From NCBI RefSeq assembly GCF_000383975.1, contig NZ_KB913017.1:3200265-3264264 (forward strand): 64,000 nt of DNA, given 5' to 3'. Positions 44,007 to 63,462 of this stretch are shown here, piece after piece. Numbering within the stretch: the first letter of the stretch is position 1; each line of letters opens with the position of its first letter. The notes beneath the pieces are model-generated. The model worked only from the letters and a program-made list of their open reading frames with translations. It was not told the origin of the DNA and did no database searches. Source of the stretch: Natronorubrum tibetense GA33 (GTDB lineage: Archaea; Halobacteriota; Halobacteria; Halobacteriales; Natrialbaceae). A program made the position numbers and the translations under genes.

Positions 44007-44987
44007 GGGCCTTGTATAGACGCTCAAACGTTAGCAGTGTATAGCTGATCGAACTCTTGTCGCTGTGCTAGTAGCTCGGGGAAAATACCACATCTACTAG
44101 GAAGTGAAGCGGGACGGGTTCGTTGTGCACACGAAGACCTCCCGCTTCACAGAGAGGGTTGTGTCGCTCGCCCAAAAAGCCGTCGTTGGCCCGCCAGCTC
44201 CGGCCTACCGCCCGGGAGAAGAAGGCTACGCTGACTGGGTGATTCTCGCCGTTCAGGGATTGAAAGAGTATCTCGGCCATCCGTACCGGAAGCTGATGGA
44301 CGTCCTCCGTGAGATGCCGAGAGTTACGGAATCACTCGGATTGACGCCTGAAACGGTTCCACACTTCTCGACGGTGTGTACGCGAAAACAAGCGATTCCA
44401 ATGAAGCGGTGGCGAGCGATCCTCGATCAGTCCGTCGAACTGTATGATCTTGGAGATGTACAGGCGATCGACGCAACCGGTGTCGATCGCGTCCAGGCCA
44501 GCCAGCACTACGCAAAACGGACGGACTACACGTTCGAGGCGGTGAAGACGACGCTGCTCATCGATTGTGAAACCAGTGCGATTCTCGATATACACTGTTC
44601 GATGAAACAACCGCACGATACACAGGTCGGTTGGCAGGTGTTAGTGCGGAATCTCGACGAGTTGGCGACTGTCGCTGCCGATAAGGGCTACGACTGGGAA
44701 GAACTTCGCACGAGATTGCGTGCGGAAAGTATCACACCGCTGATTCCGCAGCGAGATCCTGGAATGCGGGGATGGGCGAGAAATTTGCTCATCAAGGATC
44801 GGGCGTATCACCAGCGTTCGAACGCTGAATCAGTGTTTTTTGGGCTCCGGCGCAGATACGGCGATACGCTCTGGTCGAGAACCTGGTTCGGCCAATTACG
44901 TGAACTTGTCATGAAATCCGCCGTCCGCAACATCGAACGCGCAATAGAGGACTCACACCCGTGAAATCACGCGTTCAAACAAGGCCC
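44007..44987 (+). mobile_element. Complete IS5-like insertion sequence (981 bp)
   Basis: Ends GGGCCTTGT (44007-44015) and ACAAGGCCC (44979-44987) are perfect 9-base terminal inverted repeats; similarity continues weakly inward (GACGC/GAACGC). The flanks AGAGGGT (44000-44006) and AGAGGGT (44988-44994) are a 7-base target duplication. One transposase gene fills the element. It is nested inside the left end of the larger 43952-46873 unit. Confidence 0.85.
44104..44964 (+). CDS. IS5-family DDE transposase
   Basis: A 286-residue transposase. Catalytic residues read as Asp123 (VQAIDATGVD), Asp193 (TVAADKGYDWEE) and Glu242 (RSNAESVFFGLRRRYG), the last matching the Y-(2)-R-(3)-E-like signature region of IS4/IS5 enzymes (here YHQRSNAE). 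The N-terminal region (YADWVILAVQGLKEYLGHPY) matches haloarchaeal IS5-group elements. Start GTG 44104. Frame is intact with terminal repeats and target duplication present, so the element may be active. Confidence 0.93.
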   Translation: MKRDGFVVHTKTSRFTERVVSLAQKAVVGPPAPAYRPGEEGYADWVILAVQGLKEYLGHPYRKLMDVLREMPRVTESLGLTPETVPHFSTVCTRKQAIPMKRWRAILDQSVELYDLGDVQAIDATGVDRVQASQHYAKRTDYTFEAVKTTLLIDCETSAILDIHCSMKQPHDTQVGWQVLVRNLDELATVAADKGYDWEELRTRLRAESITPLIPQRDPGMRGWARNLLIKDRAYHQRSNAESVFFGLRRRYGDTLWSRTWFGQLRELVMKSAVRNIERAIEDSHP

Positions 44988-51873: not shown

Positions 51874-53442
51874 ATGCGTCGAACAGCGGTCATCTCAGGG
51901 CTCTGTGGGATCACCGGATTCTCCATCGGGACACGATGGTTGTCAAACCGGGGCGGGTCGCTGTTCGGGTGGGCTACAGCTGCGTCCGACAGCACTACCG
52001 TCGCAGTCCTTTTCGCCTTTATTGCCGAACACGGCACTGTACTGTTCGCCGTGAGTCTCTCGGCCCAACTAGTCCTTTACGCGATAGGTATCTACCTTCT
52101 ATGGCCGTATCTCCTTCCAGGACGGAGTCAGGAACTGGTTCGTTTCTCCCGAGTGCGTATCGCGTTGACCGTTACGGTCCTGCTGACCTTTTCATATTCA
52201 TATATGCTGATCCAAAGAGATTACGTCCACCCCCTCGATGTCGGGGCTTTTGTTGTTCTTGTTTTGCTCATCCCGTGCGTGATCGGTTGGCTGCTTGTGC
52301 GATCACATCCAACACCGTATGATCCCGAGGAAGGCTGTATCGTGTATGTTAGTGCGTTGACTGAGATCGGTCGACCGGGAGGTCACTCATCTTCTACGAA
52401 CGAATTCGATCCATACAGTCTGCAATCTATGCTGATTTATACGTATCTGGCCGGCCTCGTGCTAACCGCCATCGCTTTTTTTACTGGAGGAATAATGTCG
52501 TTGCTCTTTTTATTATACCCTCTTCTTGAAGTGACAGTACTCATATTCGGTGTCTTGAGCGTTGTGAGGTCACGATTGTCTATCCCCGTTAGGACCGTCC
52601 ATGCCGATGTTGAAACCGTGTTTTTGAAATCGGCATCAGCCGTGATCGTCTCGCCCAAAGGGTTCGCGACGTTCTTTTTTATTTTTGGCGGACTTGCGAT
52701 GGCCGGAATCTCGCTGGTCGCAGGAGTCGGTATTCTCACGCTCGGTGGTCGCGTATTCCTGACCGAGATGGCTACTGGAACGATTGGGGCAACCGTCGCT
52801 GTAGGACTCACTTGTGGGGTGATCTATGGGATATACGGCCTATGGTACTGGCTCGGGGTCGCTCGTCGGCTTCCGGCATTGCTTCGAGTATCGGAGGGAA
52901 GTTCAGTTTCGCCAATTCCCATCCGGCCACGGGGCGCGATGATTTCTCCCACCATGTTGTTGCTTTACCCTGCCGGAGTTGTTGTCATTCTAGCGTTATT
53001 GATTTTTCATGGCCTATATGACGAGATTTCCCCACTGTGGCTGATAGGAACGATCGGAGTCGGGTTCATCGTAGTACTCGGGCTCGTCACATGGAACGTC
53101 TTATCGACGTTCCGTCAATCTCGACCACAGCCGGCCGCGTCAGACGATCAGGCCATTCCGACCGCCATCGTGATACAGAGCATCGGATTCATTGCCTCGT
53201 TAGTCCTGTTGTCGGTATACGATCCGATCACTGGCGGTGGAATAAAAGCGGGAATTGAGTCGCTTCGTTCCTCGGTGGTGGTGTACGGGCGATGGCTCCT
53301 GTTGCTGCCACCATTCTTGACGTTATTTTATGCGAACCGACTCGGTCGAATGCTCTTCGATAGCGATAATTCTCGGGTGGAGGTGGTGATAATGTTCGCG
53401 GTCACCGCAGTTCTGATCGGTCTCTTGGTTGTGGTTTTTTGA
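51874..53442 (+). CDS. Polytopic membrane protein, family A copy 1
   Basis: A 522-residue protein with about 12 hydrophobic helices and no recognised domain. Diagnostic segment YGIYGLWYWLGVARRLPALL in the middle also occurs, as YAVYGLWFWLRVLDRMPAFL, in the protein at 61491-63203, so the two belong to one family; both place it after a cluster of N-terminal helices and before a further six or so. Central cytosolic-looking linker (about 150-175) is hydrophilic. Start ATG 51874. Transporter-like in shape but without known motifs; function unknown. Confidence 0.75.
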   Translation: MRRTAVISGLCGITGFSIGTRWLSNRGGSLFGWATAASDSTTVAVLFAFIAEHGTVLFAVSLSAQLVLYAIGIYLLWPYLLPGRSQELVRFSRVRIALTVTVLLTFSYSYMLIQRDYVHPLDVGAFVVLVLLIPCVIGWLLVRSHPTPYDPEEGCIVYVSALTEIGRPGGHSSSTNEFDPYSLQSMLIYTYLAGLVLTAIAFFTGGIMSLLFLLYPLLEVTVLIFGVLSVVRSRLSIPVRTVHADVETVFLKSASAVIVSPKGFATFFFIFGGLAMAGISLVAGVGILTLGGRVFLTEMATGTIGATVAVGLTCGVIYGIYGLWYWLGVARRLPALLRVSEGSSVSPIPIRPRGAMISPTMLLLYPAGVVVILALLIFHGLYDEISPLWLIGTIGVGFIVVLGLVTWNVLSTFRQSRPQPAASDDQAIPTAIVIQSIGFIASLVLLSVYDPITGGGIKAGIESLRSSVVVYGRWLLLLPPFLTLFYANRLGRMLFDSDNSRVEVVIMFAVTAVLIGLLVVVF

Positions 53443-54144: not shown

Positions 54145-55080
54145 TCACACAACTCTCGTGAGCGAACCCGTCTCTGTCTCGATCTCAACGAAGGAAACAC
54201 CGGGGCTGCCGGGATTGTAGATGTCTGCATAGCCGCCTGTGGTTTCGATTACGTCCCGTCCTTCGGCATGCATGTGGCCACTAAAAACGACGTCCGGTGC
54301 CGACGCAGCGATCGCCATTTTGAGTGGGATTGAGCCGCGGTGAAGTCGCCCGCGGAGGGCCTCGGAGGAATGGTGGTGATCAAAATCAACGTGAAACGGC
54401 GACTCGTGCGAGAGCAGTATCGTCGTCTCTCCCTTATTGGTAAGCAACTCACGTATCTCGTCGAATTCCTCTGCAAGTTCGGTGAGTTCGCCAGCGCACT
54501 TCTGCTGGCGATCCGCCGACACGCCGAGTTCAACTGCCGCTTCTCGTGAATCGAGTCGTCCCGCGAGAAACCGCCCGACGATGGCTTCCACGGCGTTCGC
54601 AGTTTGTGCTGCCGTTTGCGTCACGCTCTTGACTTCAGTCAACTCCGGGACGATCCCTGGATACTGATCGTACGCGAACGTCGGCGTCAAGTCGAACTGT
54701 TTGCACCCCCAACCGACGAATCGGACCGCCTCGAGAGTTGGCTGTTTCCTTATCAGATCATCAACAGCGCATCGATGTGCGACGATGACGTTGTCAAGAC
54801 CGTTGGCGAGCCGTCGCGTGCAGTCAACAGGATCGTGATTTCCGGGAACAGTGATGACTGGTACACCGACCTCGTTCAGTTGCTCAAAAAACGCCCGTCC
54901 GCGCCTTTCATAAGCGCTTCCAGCAGTTTCGTCTCCTGCATGATCGGTATTGTCGTCGATAATGTCCCCGATCGAGACGATCGCATCCACGTCTAGTGAC
55001 TCGATATTTGGACACTCTGGCGGAGTCGTCGGTCCGGTCGCACTCAGATGGAGATCTCCGAGCAGGAGGAGTCTGACCAT
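54145..55080 (-). CDS. Calcineurin-like metallophosphoesterase
   Basis: A 311-residue phosphoesterase with the di-metal motifs in order: GDLHLS (DxH), SIGDIIDD (GD), VPGNHDPVD (GNH), LLSHESP and SGHMHAEG (GHxH). Between GNHD and the last motifs is an extended helical insert (about 145-215) with AVEAIVGRFLAGRLDSREAA, possibly a lid. Substrate unknown: phosphodiester, nucleotide or protein phosphate. ATG 55080 is 27-35 bases from an A/T-rich tatatttt box (55107-55115, minus strand), supporting a leaderless start. Confidence 0.9.
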   Translation of the reverse strand: MVRLLLLGDLHLSATGPTTPPECPNIESLDVDAIVSIGDIIDDNTDHAGDETAGSAYERRGRAFFEQLNEVGVPVITVPGNHDPVDCTRRLANGLDNVIVAHRCAVDDLIRKQPTLEAVRFVGWGCKQFDLTPTFAYDQYPGIVPELTEVKSVTQTAAQTANAVEAIVGRFLAGRLDSREAAVELGVSADRQQKCAGELTELAEEFDEIRELLTNKGETTILLSHESPFHVDFDHHHSSEALRGRLHRGSIPLKMAIAASAPDVVFSGHMHAEGRDVIETTGGYADIYNPGSPGVSFVEIETETGSLTRVV

Positions 55081-55302: not shown

Positions 55303-55923
55303 CTACGGCTCCGTGATCTCATAGGAAGCGGTAACGCGCGCATTGATTTCGACTGGACCGGGTACGATGTTGTCCGTAGCGCTATACTCTAGGGCCTCGT
55401 CAACAAGCGATTGCATTCCGTCAGGACTCCTCTCACTGATCTCGATAAGATCCCCGAGTTCGACACCTTCGGCGTCCGCTATCGCTTCCGCGTGTTCTCG
55501 GGCGTCGCTCGTTGCCCTCGTCAGCGCCGCTGATCGCAACTCAGATCGGCGTTCGTCCGAAAGCGCTGTCTGGATTTCTAATACGTCCGCGCCAGCTTCC
55601 AAACCGGGGACAAGCCGATCTCGAACCTTTTCTGATCGACAGCACAGAACGAGCGTTTCTTTGGCGCAGTATGGTAGGTCGTCGGGCGCGGGATCGAATT
55701 GGTTCGATCGATGTTTGACCGTACACTCGATCGTCTCAAACTGGGACCGATCGCAGCCGTGATCAAGCAGCGACTGCCGAAGTGCCATCGTCCGATCAGC
55801 AACCGTCTGATACGCGTCTGTCGGCAGATCTCCACCCCCGCTGGTCTGAAATCGGATTTCAGATCGCTCCGGTCGAAATTGAACGCTCCCATCACCGAGT
55901 ACCGTAATCGATCGTTCGGCCAT
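55303..55923 (-). CDS. SIMPL (DUF541) domain protein
   Basis: A 206-residue SIMPL-domain protein: ITVLGDGSVQFRPERSEIRF at the N-terminus, TRATSDAREHAEAIADAEGV in the centre and INARVTASYEI at the end match the family. No signal peptide is visible, so it is probably cytoplasmic here, unlike many bacterial periplasmic members. Function poorly known (stress-linked in some bacteria). Confidence 0.85.
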   Translation of the reverse strand: MAERSITVLGDGSVQFRPERSEIRFQTSGGGDLPTDAYQTVADRTMALRQSLLDHGCDRSQFETIECTVKHRSNQFDPAPDDLPYCAKETLVLCCRSEKVRDRLVPGLEAGADVLEIQTALSDERRSELRSAALTRATSDAREHAEAIADAEGVELGDLIEISERSPDGMQSLVDEALEYSATDNIVPGPVEINARVTASYEITEP

Positions 55924-56173: not shown

Positions 56174-56959
56174 ATGATACGCTCAACCTCTCTTACCGTT
56201 CCACTCACTCTCTTGGTTGTTCTTTTAATCGCAACCTCGTCAGCAGCCGGGGCCGTTTCCACCAGCTACGATACGGAGTATCACGGTGACAGCGAGGACG
56301 CCGACCAGGCCATCGAAACGACGTTTACGCTGTCTCCCGACGACGACGAAATTACGGACATTCAGATCGATTTCCAGCACACTGACGACGCGTTCGTCGA
56401 CTTCGATTCCTTCAGTACGACGACCTCTGCCGGGGCGGACATCGACATCCAGTACGAAGGCAACGGCGTGTTCACGATCGATGAGATTCAGACGAACGAA
56501 GACGTCGTCTTCGAGTTTGAGGCGTATCCCACGGATATCAAGCAGGAAGAGATCAGATCGACGACCATCGAAATCGACTACGTCCAGCAGGGACAGGGGC
56601 TTTCGGAAACGGAACACATCGATGTCGACATCTCGTCCTCTCCGTGGTTCCTGTATCAGGAGGAGGTGTCTGAGGATGAGTTTTGGGATCGAGCGGGTAG
56701 CGTCATCAGCATCGGAACATTTGGCGCGTTCGCCGTGGGACTTCTCGGACTTGCTACCGCTGGAGTCTTCTATGTCCGCAGCGCAAACCGGGTAAAGTCG
56801 GCTCGTCAAACTCTGGTTAAGAAACTGAAGCGGCTCGAGAATCAGGTTGAGTCAGAGCGTGCCACCACGAAGATTCGAGACACGAGAAAAGAACTGGAAG
56901 ACGGTAACACCGGTGACCCCACCCCCTCTACCGAAGATGGGCCAGAGCTCCGTCCGTAA
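56174..56959 (+). CDS. Signal-anchored membrane protein with ectodomain and cytoplasmic coiled coil
   Basis: A 261-residue type I membrane protein. Signal peptide at residues 1-27 (LTLLVVLLIATSSAAGA), a beta-rich acidic ectodomain (about 28-170), TM helix about 178-200 (IGTFGAFAVGLLGLATAGVF), then a basic cytoplasmic coiled coil (ARQTLVKKLKRLENQVESER) and an acidic tail. No domain recognised. It precedes the tubulin-like gene by 109 bases in the same direction; the coiled coil is well placed to contact a cytoskeletal partner under the membrane (inference). Confidence 0.75.
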   Translation: MIRSTSLTVPLTLLVVLLIATSSAAGAVSTSYDTEYHGDSEDADQAIETTFTLSPDDDEITDIQIDFQHTDDAFVDFDSFSTTTSAGADIDIQYEGNGVFTIDEIQTNEDVVFEFEAYPTDIKQEEIRSTTIEIDYVQQGQGLSETEHIDVDISSSPWFLYQEEVSEDEFWDRAGSVISIGTFGAFAVGLLGLATAGVFYVRSANRVKSARQTLVKKLKRLENQVESERATTKIRDTRKELEDGNTGDPTPSTEDGPELRP

Positions 56960-57068
56960 GTGATGGCATTCGTCAGGGGAGGGGACCAGCGAAAGCCGGG
57001 TCCTCTCGCCCGTATCTGCGATCCGTTTCAGCCATAAGTTATTTCATCTATAACGACAGGTATTACCT

Positions 57069-59456
57069 ATGACAACGAATCCAACGATAGTGGTTGGGGT
57101 GGGTGAAGCTGGCTGTCGAATGGCCACTCACCTTTACGAAGATCTCAAGCGCGACGGCGAGTCTCTACTCGACGAGTTTTCGTTCGTCGGCGTCGACACC
57201 AAAGAGAGCGATCTGAAGGCGATCACGTCAAAAGAGGGGTTCACCCAGATCACGTTAGATCCGCCCGAAGAATTCTGGGAGAACGATCGCGAGTCGTTCA
57301 GTTATCTCTCGTCGGACTACGAACTGAGCCGGAGCGGAGGCGCCACTCGCCAGCGGTCGATCGCCCGGTACTATATTGACAACAAGGAGAACTACGTCTC
57401 GCTCTATCAGAGCCTCGAAAACGTATTCGCCGAGTTCGAGAGCAACGACGGCGGCTCGCTAACAGATCCCGATATCGGGGGCGCGAACGTCTGGTTGCTC
57501 AACTCCCTGGGCGGGGGGACCGGAAGTGGCGCATTCCCGCTCATCACTTCGATACTCTACAACGTCTCACGGGCCCGGAACTACAAGTATTACCTCTGTG
57601 GCATCGGCTCACTCCCGCGCCTCGACAGCCTGGAGCATCGTGGGCTCCCTCCCCAGGCGAATGCCGATTTCTACGGGAACGCGTACGCTGCACTTCGAGA
57701 GCTCGCGGTCCTCATCGATTACAATTTCCACGAAGAGTATCAGGACGCGGCAGGAATCGACTCCAACAAGGCGATCCGTCTCGAATCGGAGCCAAAACGA
57801 CAATCAGAACTGGACCTCCCTGACAGCGCATTCGACTTTTACGGCCTGATCGGGGCGAACGAAAGCGAAATGAGCGTCAGCTACCGGGACGAGATGAACC
57901 AAATCTCGGCGAATACGATCCGATTCTTCGCCCAAGCCGTTGGCCTCGAGGACTTCCCGGATGACCGAAACAAGCCTGGATCGGAGGACGTGTTATTTTC
58001 GCTAGACAGTACTTCGGTTCGCGTTCCGATGGACGAAGTCGATGAGTACATTGAGGTCGTTGAGGCGATAAACGAAATCGAAGCGGAGCTTAGCGATGTC
58101 AAAGATCGGATCCAGCGCACCAGACGGAATCGCGACTACATCAACGGAGCGCTGGATATAGACCTTCGGGATGTGGATCTCGAGGAACTCGGCCACGTTG
58201 ATCCAGAGTTCATTAGAACAGCTAAAGATCGCACTCGAAGCATCGAGGTAGCGTCGATATCGAATCCTGATGTGCTGGACGAGGAGTTTGAGAATTACGT
58301 AATGAATCAAACGCCGGCCATCAGCGATGAGTACGATGTTGAGAAGTCCGACGTGGTCGGGCTCATATTCTATCAGTCGCTCCGGAACCGGATGGAAGAT
58401 CTAATCACAAATGATCAGTCGGCTCAGGACCTTCAGGAGGCGTGGACGGACTACAGCGTCGAGATCGGTTCGTTCCGAGATGAAGTCGTGGACACCGCTG
58501 AGTTAGAAAGCAGTTCGACACTTCGAAAGTGGGAGGACGGTCTTGCCCCCTTCTTTACGGGCTGGAAGAAAAGCCTACAGAACTCGCTCGAGCAGATCCC
58601 CTCGTATCGAGTGCTTGAGCGACGGAACACAAGAGAGGACCTCCAGAAAGTCGAAAACCTGTACAGGAATCTCGAATCGGCGTACGCTCAACATCGAACG
58701 CTGGTCAACGCCCAGAACGTGGTGACGTCGCGATTGAACACGCAGCGGTCGAACCTCAAGTCCGCCCGTAAAGAGTACGAGAGCCAGATCGAAGAGTTCA
58801 CGTCCGAGCGAGAAACGCTGATCGAGCGTCAACAGCAACGAGAAAACGAGTTACAGACGAAAGAGTACACGTTATCACACACCGACCATGAGCGGTACAT
58901 GTCCGTGGAGCTTCGAAATTTCGAAACGATCGACGAGGAGTTCCTGGACGAAATGGAGAGTTTCTCGAACCTGATCGTTCGCAACGCGGTAAGCAAGGAG
59001 ACGGTGGCGTTGGCAATCGAGAAACAGCTCGACGAACTTCACGAACCGATTCAGGATATCACGCCATACGTTGTCTCCGAGAGTAGCTACGAGATTCTTG
59101 GAGCGCTCGTGGACGAAGAGAACCGGGGGCTTCTCGAGGGAGAACTTGCCGACGTTTCGGCGAGCGACGTCTCCGACGCCCTCAGTTCGTTCAACGAGGT
59201 GGAGTACAGCGAAGCGTTCCAAGATCCGTTTTCGATTCGATTCGTCGGCTGTTACACCGACGTATTCATCGAAAACACCAGCGAGTTCGGAACCATTCAC
59301 GACTTCTACACTGATCCCGATAAGGACGTAGGAGACCTGTTCGGACTAGATACGACCGACGACGACTTCATCGCGGACCGAATTGCCTACCCGGAACTGT
59401 TCCCGGAAGACGAGCGGATCCAGACCTATCGAGATCCGATTTCGGCAGACGACTAA
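57069..59456 (+). CDS. Divergent tubulin/FtsZ-superfamily protein with coiled-coil C-terminus
   Basis: A 795-residue protein. Residues 5-22 (PTIVVGVGEAGCRMATHL) form the nucleotide-binding loop found in FtsZ/tubulin; VGVDTKESD (about 40-48) fits the next loop. The tubulin signature GGGTGSG is at 148-154 (LLNSLGGGTGSGAFP). NADFYGNAYAALREL (198-212) matches the Asn-bearing helix contacting the guanine. No clear NxDxxD/E T7 catalytic loop is seen. After about residue 325 come long helical segments, including a coiled coil about 560-640. FtsZ and CetZ are 350-400 residues, so this is neither; it resembles the Tubulin_2-like group. Probably a membrane-linked GTP-dependent polymer with the upstream anchored protein (inference). 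Confidence 0.85.
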   Translation: MTTNPTIVVGVGEAGCRMATHLYEDLKRDGESLLDEFSFVGVDTKESDLKAITSKEGFTQITLDPPEEFWENDRESFSYLSSDYELSRSGGATRQRSIARYYIDNKENYVSLYQSLENVFAEFESNDGGSLTDPDIGGANVWLLNSLGGGTGSGAFPLITSILYNVSRARNYKYYLCGIGSLPRLDSLEHRGLPPQANADFYGNAYAALRELAVLIDYNFHEEYQDAAGIDSNKAIRLESEPKRQSELDLPDSAFDFYGLIGANESEMSVSYRDEMNQISANTIRFFAQAVGLEDFPDDRNKPGSEDVLFSLDSTSVRVPMDEVDEYIEVVEAINEIEAELSDVKDRIQRTRRNRDYINGALDIDLRDVDLEELGHVDPEFIRTAKDRTRSIEVASISNPDVLDEEFENYVMNQTPAISDEYDVEKSDVVGLIFYQSLRNRMEDLITNDQSAQDLQEAWTDYSVEIGSFRDEVVDTAELESSSTLRKWEDGLAPFFTGWKKSLQNSLEQIPSYRVLERRNTREDLQKVENLYRNLESAYAQHRTLVNAQNVVTSRLNTQRSNLKSARKEYESQIEEFTSERETLIERQQQRENELQTKEYTLSHTDHERYMSVELRNFETIDEEFLDEMESFSNLIVRNAVSKETVALAIEKQLDELHEPIQDITPYVVSESSYEILGALVDEENRGLLEGELADVSASDVSDALSSFNEVEYSEAFQDPFSIRFVGCYTDVFIENTSEFGTIHDFYTDPDKDVGDLFGLDTTDDDFIADRIAYPELFPEDERIQTYRDPISADD

Positions 59457-59520: not shown

Positions 59521-60198
59521 CGCCTTCTTCATTCAAACGAACAAGACTTCTCGCAGTCAGAACACGAGAAGACGAGCATCCACCGGAAACTCGGTGACAA
59601 AGAAAAACGATTCACCGAAAGGATATTGCATCGTCTCTCCCGTGCTGTCGTGGAGTTTACGGAGCAGTTCTCGAACCCGGTTATCGTGTCCGAGGATATG
59701 AGCGGTATCCGTGACGAAATGCAGTACGGCACGTATGTGAACCACCGGTTGCACAAACTCCCGTTTCGCAAGTTCGAGACGCTCGTCTCGTACAAGGCGA
59801 CTTGGCGGGAGATCTCCACCGACACAGTGGATGCCTATTACAACTCGCAGACGTGTTCGTGCTGTGGTGAGTGTGGATATCGGTGGGAACGGCGGTTCCA
59901 CTGTACGAACGATGAGTATGACGTGGTGCAAGATCACGCAGATCGGATTGCATCGGTGAATATCGCGTGGCGCGAGAAGGCGAAACTCGACGGTAACGAA
60001 TCGGATTACCGGACTCACATAACCCAACCGCAGGTTCGGTTGGTGCGTCTGTCCAGGTCCGGGGCGTGTAAGCCGTCCAACCTTATCCCGCTCGTTCGCG
60101 GAACAGGGAGTGCTATCGCATGGCTAAGGGAACTACAAAAGCTCGGGCCACCGCGCCCGAGGCTGTTTACTCATCGAATTTGCTCATTACAAGAATAG
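59521..60198 (+). pseudogene. tnpB: C-terminal part of TnpB (IS200/IS605 RNA-guided nuclease), 5'-truncated
   Basis: An open frame without a start right after TAA 59518-59520. It contains KLGDKEKRFTERILHRLSRA, the RuvC-II region VSEDMSGIR (Glu), and the zinc-finger/RuvC-III region CSCCGECGYRW and DHADRIASVNIAW (Asp). The RuvC-I part with the first catalytic Asp is lost, and the second CxxC of the zinc finger is broken (HCTNDEY). Near the end a GC hairpin (CTCGGGC/GCCCGAG, 60142-60161) is the likely right-end/guide-RNA scaffold structure. Inactive remnant. Confidence 0.85.
60142..60161 (+). ncRNA. Possible IS605 right-end hairpin / omega-RNA scaffold remnant
   Basis: Stem CTCGGGC (60142-60148) and GCCCGAG (60155-60161) around caccgc, inside the 3' end of the tnpB frame, where such elements encode their guide RNA scaffold and right end. 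Only the hairpin is recognisable. Confidence 0.35.
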
Positions 60199-61490: not shown

Positions 61491-63203
61491 CTAATCGCTC
61501 GACACGAACACGTGCTGCAAAGTGTATAGAAAGCACACGGCGCCAATCCAAGCGTACAGGAACACGTTGAATAATTGTCCGACGAAGAGGACACAAAGAA
61601 GGAATGCAGTTGATGCAGCCAGTGACCGCTGCACGTCTGCCGATTTCACGAACGGTTTGAGATGAATGATGTAGACGGCGCCAACACCGAAAATGAAAAA
61701 GAAAAACTCGTAGAGGTCATACAGGTTCGAGACAGGTGTGTCGAAAAATCGGATGCCAGCCAGCACGAGTAGAGAATAAAGGTATCCAACGAACCAAGTT
61801 GTATCGAAAAAACGGCGCGCGTATCGGTACACGTCGTCCATATAAAACAGAAGTATAAAAACCAAGGCTGCTTGGCCCACCTGTTCCGAAGACATGTGTC
61901 CAGCGGTCAGTTCAAACTCCATTCCGCTGGTTACCCCTGACTCGATTGACGATAACGCGTTCGAAAGAAGCATGAAACCAAGCAAATAGACGAGGAATGC
62001 GCTTGGAAGCCACCAGTTGTCGCGGCCTAGCCTGGCCTCGGTACTTGATTCTCTGGTTCGTTTGAACGACTCTCCGATAGACATGGCCCCCAACGCGTAG
62101 AAACCGATGATTCCGAGGGTCCAAACGGTTATTCCCTCGGCGTCAAACTGGGAGAAGAAGGCAAGCAAACCGACCGTACCTCCTGACAAGACCACTGTCG
62201 GTACAATCCAGAATCTGGGTAACGGTGTGACAGTAATTCTTTTTTTGCCGGTTACGAACCGCTCCTGTTCGTCTCGCCGATAACTGGTCAGGAATGCGGG
62301 CATCCTATCTAAAACCCGAAGCCAGAACCAGAGGCCGTACACCGCATAGAGAATGACGGATAAGCTAACGATGATATGTGCATCGGTTGGTACTGTCCCT
62401 TCTGACAGTACCTTCCCGAAAGCGAACATCGTCTCGCGCTCAAGTGAGAACGGTGTCACAGCCAACAAAAGCCCAACGAGAACCATGAAGACTGTCATCA
62501 TCCCTTTCAGTGGTGTCGTAAGGACTGAGCCGAACGTGGTGAACAACGTGTCCAACAAATCGGTCTTAATCCGCGGTCCTTCGGGAAGTAATGCTACTCG
62601 CCGGGCGATCATATCGTACGTGGCGACACCGACTACGAGGACCTCGAGTATTGGAAACTGTTGCTCGGCGACGCTTATTGCTAAAATTGTGAAACAGACA
62701 AACAGCATTACCATTCCACCGATGAGCAGCGAAATAGCACCCGTATTCGCTCCTGCTGGTGGTTGATCCATAGTGCCGGTATTTGCTATCAGAATCTGGC
62801 TGAACATCTGCTGAGGTTCACTCTGGTTGTCTATTGCCTTGGACCACGCGTAAACGATCCCAGTCAACAGTAACCATGTCGTGAGTGATAGAATAACAAG
62901 TAATAACAGCGTGTTTGGCGTCGGATCGCGACTCCAAAATAAAAACCCGCTAATCACAATGCCCGTAACAAGAGCCCAGAACGGCGACCACTTTGAACTA
63001 TCATTTTTGGTAAAATAGTTCGGTGTTTGATATACGACATAGGCATACAGGACAAGTTGAAGAACTCCCATCAGTACGTCGGGTAGCCAGTCCAGCCAAA
63101 AGAGCGCCAGCACCACTGGGGCCGAATCCAACAATATCAGTATACCTGCGAGTATGCCGGCAATTGCTGAGGGCCTGACTCGTGTCAATTGTATCCTACT
63201 CAT
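61491..63203 (-). CDS. Polytopic membrane protein, family A copy 2
   Basis: A 570-residue protein with about 14 hydrophobic helices. It shares with the 51874-53442 protein the segment VILYAVYGLWFWLRVLDRMP and a similar helix layout (N-terminal cluster, a charged linker, the YGLWFWL helix pair and a C-terminal six-helix block), but overall identity looks low. It lacks known transporter motifs. ATG 63203 is chosen; the frame upstream to 63320 is basic and unlikely. The A/T-rich 63210-63270 region is a probable promoter. Confidence 0.75.
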   Translation of the reverse strand: MSRIQLTRVRPSAIAGILAGILILLDSAPVVLALFWLDWLPDVLMGVLQLVLYAYVVYQTPNYFTKNDSSKWSPFWALVTGIVISGFLFWSRDPTPNTLLLLVILSLTTWLLLTGIVYAWSKAIDNQSEPQQMFSQILIANTGTMDQPPAGANTGAISLLIGGMVMLFVCFTILAISVAEQQFPILEVLVVGVATYDMIARRVALLPEGPRIKTDLLDTLFTTFGSVLTTPLKGMMTVFMVLVGLLLAVTPFSLERETMFAFGKVLSEGTVPTDAHIIVSLSVILYAVYGLWFWLRVLDRMPAFLTSYRRDEQERFVTGKKRITVTPLPRFWIVPTVVLSGGTVGLLAFFSQFDAEGITVWTLGIIGFYALGAMSIGESFKRTRESSTEARLGRDNWWLPSAFLVYLLGFMLLSNALSSIESGVTSGMEFELTAGHMSSEQVGQAALVFILLFYMDDVYRYARRFFDTTWFVGYLYSLLVLAGIRFFDTPVSNLYDLYEFFFFIFGVGAVYIIHLKPFVKSADVQRSLAASTAFLLCVLFVGQLFNVFLYAWIGAVCFLYTLQHVFVSSD

Positions 63204-63462
63204 ATCATAACACGGCGCTTGACGTATGTCGATATCATAATTATCATTTAAATATCTTTTCAAGGTTATACTTACCCTCTTCGCGATTGCGCCCAGACAA
63301 TTCCCTCGAGGCCGAAACACGCGCTGAAACGCCGATAAAACCGCAATCCCGGGCCGATACGGGCATCAGGCAGGAATAGCGACAGAGACGTATTTCCTAG
63401 TCTGTACCTTCGGTTTCCGGGTGGTCGTATCGATTGAACCGGTACTTGCCTGTCCGAATCAC

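Follow-up and report, generated by a model that had tools for sequence, protein, structure and literature searches.

A tubulin-superfamily gene of the FtsZl1 family linked to the gene of an exported membrane protein in Natronorubrum tibetense and other haloarchaea

The gene pair and the membrane partner

The window, by which we mean the whole 64,000-nt stretch of Natronorubrum tibetense DNA that was analysed, carries two closely spaced genes on the + strand. The first codes for a 261-aa membrane protein, referred to here as the partner, and the second, separated from it by 109 bp, codes for a 795-aa protein of the FtsZl1/Tubulin_2 family. Both reading frames lie where the initial annotation, made from the letters alone, had placed them. 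The FtsZ1, FtsZ2 and CetZ-type genes of the host are found at other sites of the same chromosome. Two homologous proteins with multiple membrane spans and without a known family are encoded on either side of the pair (51874-53442, +, and 61491-63320, -; phmmer E 3e-12 to each other). The partner gene has the following features:

56174-56959, + strand: partner gene, coding for a type I membrane protein of 261 aa whose Ig-like ectodomain is exported (open reading frame; AlphaFold2 model)
56174-56251, + strand: signal peptide, residues 1-26 (hydrophobic helix 7-25 ending SSAAGA; position kept in all partners)
56255-56629, + strand: ectodomain, nine-strand beta-sandwich, residues 28-152 (AlphaFold2 pLDDT mostly >80, many blocks >90; Ig-type adhesin-like fold, Z about 12)
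56702-56773, + strand: transmembrane helix, about residues 177-200 (hydropathy; AlphaFold2 helix 186-224)
56774-56956, + strand: cytoplasmic tail, a basic helix followed by an acidic end (net +8 over residues 201-240, -5 over 241-261)

The predicted signal peptide, nine-strand beta-sandwich and single membrane helix agree with the earlier description of a type I membrane protein with an exported beta-rich domain. Residues 27-170 carry a net charge of -38, and most of this region is modelled as the beta-sandwich. When the model was compared with known structures, the nearest folds to the ectodomain were the Ig-type adhesin domains of Als3, ACE and CNA (Z about 12 over 120-130 residues); because the Ig-like fold is common, this tells little about the ligand. 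None of the Pfam, NCBIfam or PADLOC families reached its cut-off with the partner, SepF, ZipA and FtsA profiles of Pfam and NCBIfam included, and a weak FtsL-type match (13.6 bits versus 50) was restricted to the tail helix.

The topology of the partner, with a signal peptide, an ectodomain and one membrane helix, was constant in 20 loci. The cytoplasmic tail ranged from 10 to 114 residues, and hence no conserved binding site is visible in it. A basic cytoplasmic coiled coil, as initially proposed, is therefore a property of the partner in the window rather than a general trait, the tails of some relatives being only 10-17 residues long. Four clostridial relatives of the FtsZl1 protein are likewise preceded directly by a gene for a signal-anchored exported membrane protein, here of 915-1,090 aa, which suggests that pairing with an exported protein might hold generally. 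A Pfam scan of two of these four membrane proteins recognised nothing.

Family, fold and nucleotide site of the FtsZl1 protein

In a Pfam search, the 795-aa protein matched Tubulin_2 (PF13809) over residues 7-327 with 63.1 bits against a cut-off of 27 (E 3.6e-17). The classical Tubulin family fell just below its cut-off (31.2 bits, cut-off 33), and the FtsZ equivalog TIGR00065 of NCBIfam was far from being reached (12.6 bits versus 295). The features of the gene are listed below:

57069-59456, + strand: FtsZl1/Tubulin_2 gene, 795 aa (PF13809 63.1 bits; AlphaFold2 pLDDT 75, pTM 0.64; CetZ Z 21.8)
57093-57116, + strand: T1 nucleotide loop VGVGEAGC, residues 9-16 (G12 invariant in 19 relatives, G15 in 90% or more)
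57510-57530, + strand: T4 loop GGGTGSG, residues 148-154 (G149, G150, T151 and G154 invariant in 19 relatives)
57858-57941, + strand: T6/H7 region, residues 264-291 (E265 in 17/19, Y272 in 16/19, N277 in 15/19; model helix 270-291; equivalence to T6-H7 inferred from the order of elements)
57942-57992, + strand: loop replacing T7-H8, residues 292-308, without NxDxxD (19/19 relatives without the motif here)
58029-58880, + strand: inserted helical/coiled-coil region, residues about 321-604 (AlphaFold2 helices 321-363 and 515-604; structural match resumes past it)
58881-59429, + strand: C-terminal alpha/beta region predicted to finish the tubulin fold, residues about 605-787, with a conserved AYPEL motif at its end (strands 676-680, 711-714 and 722-729; CetZ/FtsZ match to residues 732-763; Y774 invariant)

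Both sequence motifs from which a tubulin relative was first proposed, GGGTGSG and VGVGEAGC, are present, and the Tubulin_2 score together with the structural match to CetZ shows that they are not due to chance. The protein belongs to a known, uncharacterised family, FtsZl1, which is Pfam Tubulin_2. Thus, the view of a divergent tubulin relative holds at the level of the superfamily, but the family itself is not new: a Halorhabdus protein served in 2010 to define it, set out in the main text as an FtsZ-like N terminus followed by a coiled coil and a further domain (PMC2875224). A phylogeny from 2023 left Tubulin_2/FtsZl1 sequences out as too divergent (PMC9871819), and plasmid relatives already carry the NCBI label "tubulin-like". 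Haloarchaea also possess a second Tubulin_2 subfamily of 1,070-1,090 aa (L056, L057, L092, L093), which is encoded without the partner gene and next to other membrane-protein genes.

An AlphaFold2 model of the FtsZl1 protein, built from just 8 sequences, reached a pLDDT of 75 and a pTM of 0.64, with moderate confidence in its C-terminal part. Its best Foldseek match was CetZ (E 2.4e-6). A second aligner matched the model to CetZ with Z 21.8 (298/342 CetZ residues, model residues 2-763) and to FtsZ with Z 20.2 (270/304 FtsZ residues, model residues 3-732). Since 270 positions exceed the first domain of FtsZ, much of the second domain must match too. Profile-profile comparison with FtsZ and CetZ aligned T4 to H6 and nothing wider, so that the wider match is that of the predicted model. 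The checks proposed with the initial annotation, a profile search against Tubulin_2 and FtsZ families and a structural comparison with known relatives, thus both place the protein in the tubulin superfamily, the profile search also outside FtsZ proper, and computation on the model shows a two-domain tubulin fold in which both domains are covered.

The position of the coiled coil differs from what was first proposed. Rather than forming the C-terminal half, the long helices (about 321-604) lie mid-protein, between a strand at 309-318 and the strands at 676-729, and are followed by the alpha/beta region. In the model, with its moderately confident C-terminal part, the coiled coil is therefore an insertion within a complete tubulin fold. 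The overall layout, an N-terminal tubulin domain, an extended coiled coil and a C-terminal domain, is that of FtsZl1. If confirmed, a coiled coil inserted in the tubulin fold would change the alignment and interpretation of the FtsZl1/Tubulin_2 family.

The NxDxxD catalytic motif of T7, sought between H7 and the next strand, was present in 0/19 FtsZl1 relatives. This bears out the earlier remark that a T7 loop is not apparent, and justifies the doubt raised then about GTP hydrolysis. Without this motif, classical GTP-driven dynamics are unlikely; its absence suggests little or unconventional hydrolysis and an assembly that would be stable or of slow turnover rather than treadmilling. E265, Y272 and N277 would be the counterparts of the guanine-contacting residues of tubulin. 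The T4 loop is altered to SGGTAAG or AGGTGAG in one subgroup (L052, L053, L055, L088), and the use of GTP is therefore perhaps not universal in the family.

Linkage of the two genes and their genomic companions

The partner adjoins FtsZl1 genes of this subfamily wherever an intact locus was examined, which is a new observation. It extends over about 24 loci, mostly haloarchaeal, and runs directly counter to the refutation proposed at the outset, that the two genes might never be adjacent elsewhere. Among 392 genomes of the order, FtsZl1 was found in 20, strong partner matches in 18 and both in 17 (Fisher p about 8e-26, inflated by shared ancestry), and all 17 intact FtsZl1 copies have the partner. 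In the three genomes with FtsZl1 only, the gene is fragmentary, carries a frameshift or lies at a contig end; in the sole genome with the partner only (G382), C-terminal FtsZl1 remnants adjoin it. In four cases (G002, G004, G226 and Halobellus clavatus) gene calls had overlong starts or overlaps, and the partner was recovered by a profile search over all open reading frames.

When the genes around the relatives found first were clustered, the membrane protein appeared next to almost all of these relatives. As the partner profile was built from such genes, independent tests count for more. A partner-first search across the phylum found two carriers outside the order, G466 and G622, in which FtsZl1 lies 64 and 11 bp away. 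The partner was also present in loci outside the set from which the profile was made (Halobellus limi, H. clavatus, H. rufus and Halorientalis persicus). Neither in the 392 genomes nor in the partner-first search of the phylum was a strong partner match found away from FtsZl1 or its remnants. The wider search of sequence collections used a query alignment of 5 sequences.

The partner may lie upstream of FtsZl1, downstream with overlapping ends, or convergent to it, and this variation in order and orientation indicates that the linkage exceeds operon drag. Evolutionary distances of the two proteins are correlated (Mantel r 0.67, with 0/20000 permutations as high), a correlation to which shared ancestry contributes. 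In Haloarcula the partner is one gene off, close to a second FtsZl1 paralogue. Two or three FtsZl1 paralogues of about 770 and 945 aa are arranged in tandem round one partner gene in L078, L080 and L081 (Haloarcula, Halolamina and Haloferax marinum), which makes hetero-assemblies possible.

None of the other members of the host genus that were searched has the pair. A DDE transposase gene (44104-44964) and, just downstream of the pair, a C-terminal remnant of a TnpB/Cas12f1-like gene (59626-60198) lie in the window. Together with the absence from the other genus members searched, these flanking remnants suggest that the pair is an accessory unit, probably acquired by transfer. Some FtsZl1 relatives are on plasmids; none was found in viral contigs.

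Companion genes vary from locus to locus. They include vWA, FHA-kinase and zinc-ribbon genes (L051, L103), Hsp70 and GrpE (L050, L083) and, at some loci, M48 peptidases, AAA proteins and HEAT-repeat proteins. vWA, GTPase and protein kinase genes are common but non-defining neighbours of the family: none was recognised near the FtsZl1 gene in the window, whereas vWA and/or kinase genes occur near L050, L051, L083, L084 and L103. An E1-JAB fusion with duplicated ubiquitin-like and E2-like small genes, reminiscent of bacterial ubiquitin-like conjugation operons, was seen in L052 (4162-7609), L088 (12105-15437) and L091 (1697-5199). Seven loci (L080 12618-14060, L051, L078, L079, L081, L082 and L086) encode, next to FtsZl1 or near it, a protein of 480 aa that combines an HExxH metallopeptidase-like motif with double zinc ribbons at the C terminus; its peptidase-like part matched no Pfam family.

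Divergently upstream of the pair in the window are a metallophosphoesterase gene (54145-55080, -) and a SIMPL-domain gene (55303-55923, -). A similar phosphoesterase-SIMPL pair is on the FtsZl1 contig in G013 and, in L084 and L088, close to FtsZl1 itself. FtsZl1-related genomes have the phosphoesterase more often (7/21 versus 25/371 others, p 0.0006), but it is mostly not adjacent to FtsZl1, and we regard it as a loose companion rather than a further component.

The host genome also contains, outside the window (G000:C1:1296805-1310733; L129 4806-18733), an apparent operon of three divergent tubulin-family genes (530, 447 and 408 aa; PF00091 44, 58.6 and 34 bits) that alternate with genes for membrane or exported proteins without a clear family (666, 341, 695, 962 and 337 aa). 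It may correspond to the quasi-tandem 'Halo.Tub' context of PMC9871819, and adds a separate, independent example of tubulin relatives whose genes lie among those of exported proteins.

Possible roles and relation to known systems

A tubulin fold in both domains, conserved residues in the GTP loops, an exported topology and near-perfect linkage form the computed basis for the reading that FtsZl1 and the partner are one functional unit, a membrane-tethered scaffold of tubulin fold, for which we judge the chances to be about even. In such a unit the FtsZl1 protein would bind GTP through its conserved T1 and T4 loops and assemble in the cytoplasm, with the internal coiled coil as a projecting arm for spacing or bundling. 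The partner would anchor it at the cytoplasmic membrane and expose the Ig-like domain to the surface-layer space, so that something outside the cell could be organised by the assembly or elicit a response from it. Direct contact between the two proteins, polymerisation and a surface role are what we infer from this basis. A bolder reading, which we consider rather unlikely as it stands, is a two-component transmembrane system in which a dedicated receptor-like protein with one membrane pass couples a T7-less tubulin with an in-fold coiled-coil arm to an exported Ig-like domain, and the surface directly controls, or is organised by, tubulin-type assembly. If true, it would be a prokaryotic analogue of the integrin-cytoskeleton link.

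The main rival to the scaffold, possible though on balance doubtful, is that the FtsZl1 protein does not polymerise but acts, with GTP bound, as a switch or as an assembly platform for a pilus- or adhesin-like surface structure, with the Ig-like partner being part of that structure or reporting on it. The missing T7 motif and the likeness of the ectodomain to adhesin and pilin domains are consistent with this, although a fold as widespread as the Ig-like one cannot pin down a function. A search of the FtsZl1/Tubulin_2 literature found a single mutant report, on Synechocystis Sll0445, whose loss impairs phototaxis and which co-fractionates with pilus assembly proteins (PMC9880817); Sll0445 is, however, a distant family member with different neighbours, and no pilus or archaellum genes were recognised among the called neighbours here. 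Transport or signalling had been suggested by a referee of the 2010 paper (PMC2875224).

Another possibility is that mobile elements spread the pair as the central part of an accessory module for stress or for defence against viruses. This would fit the patchy occurrence of the pair (FtsZl1 in 20/392 genomes of the order), the plasmid copies, the nearby transposase and TnpB remnants, and the E1/E2/ubiquitin-like, AAA, Hsp70-GrpE or kinase genes at some loci. Neither protein, however, matched a PADLOC anti-phage defence profile, no relative came from a viral contig, the companions change between loci, and in Halobellus limi the neighbours are ordinary metabolic genes; we hold this explanation to be improbable. 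A coincidental adjacency, with the membrane protein having a separate, unrelated role, could appeal to the unfixed order and orientation but is hardly credible given the pairing of all 17 intact copies, the two blind matches outside the order and the confinement of strong partner matches to FtsZl1 or its remnants.

Although FtsZl1/Tubulin_2 proteins occur across bacteria and archaea, few branches of the tubulin superfamily are as poorly understood. The pairing with an exported, membrane-anchored partner makes a tubulin-type structure wired to the cell exterior a testable idea, and the two-gene unit in culturable haloarchaea (Haloarcula japonica, Halobellus, Haloferax marinum) offers a minimal system for polymerisation, T7-less GTP hydrolysis and a connection to the outside of the cell.

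With the FtsZl1 family as set out in the main text of Makarova & Koonin (2010, PMC2875224), the present protein shares the Pfam family, the GGGTG motif, the succession of N-terminal GTPase, coiled coil and C-terminal domain, and the patchy spread; membrane-protein neighbours, and vWA, kinase and zinc-ribbon genes by some relatives, are common to both accounts. That text left T6-H7 unplaced and did not succeed in relating the C-terminal domain to FtsZ/tubulin, whereas the present model spans both domains with the coiled coil as an insert. The Ig-like partner is not named there, but could belong to the associated families that the paper leaves unnamed, A1-A2. Sll0445 has the same Pfam domain, Tubulin_2, but is encoded with Sll0446 (FtsA-domain) and Sll0447 (DivIC-domain) rather than with a partner of the present type (PMC9880817).

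The best structural likeness is to CetZ (3zid, 4b46, 4b45), over both domains of the model and with Z 19-22; no solved structure was named as a member of the family in the literature searched. CetZ is about 350-400 aa long, lacks the coiled-coil insert and shares 14-16% sequence identity with the FtsZl1 protein, which Pfam assigns to Tubulin_2. FtsZ is a cytoplasmic tubulin-type polymer kept at the membrane by the dedicated anchors ZipA, FtsA and SepF. No similarity between the partner and any of these anchors was detected, and none of them has a folded, exported domain such as the partner carries; what the pair would share with them is the proposed logic of a tubulin-type polymer held at the membrane.
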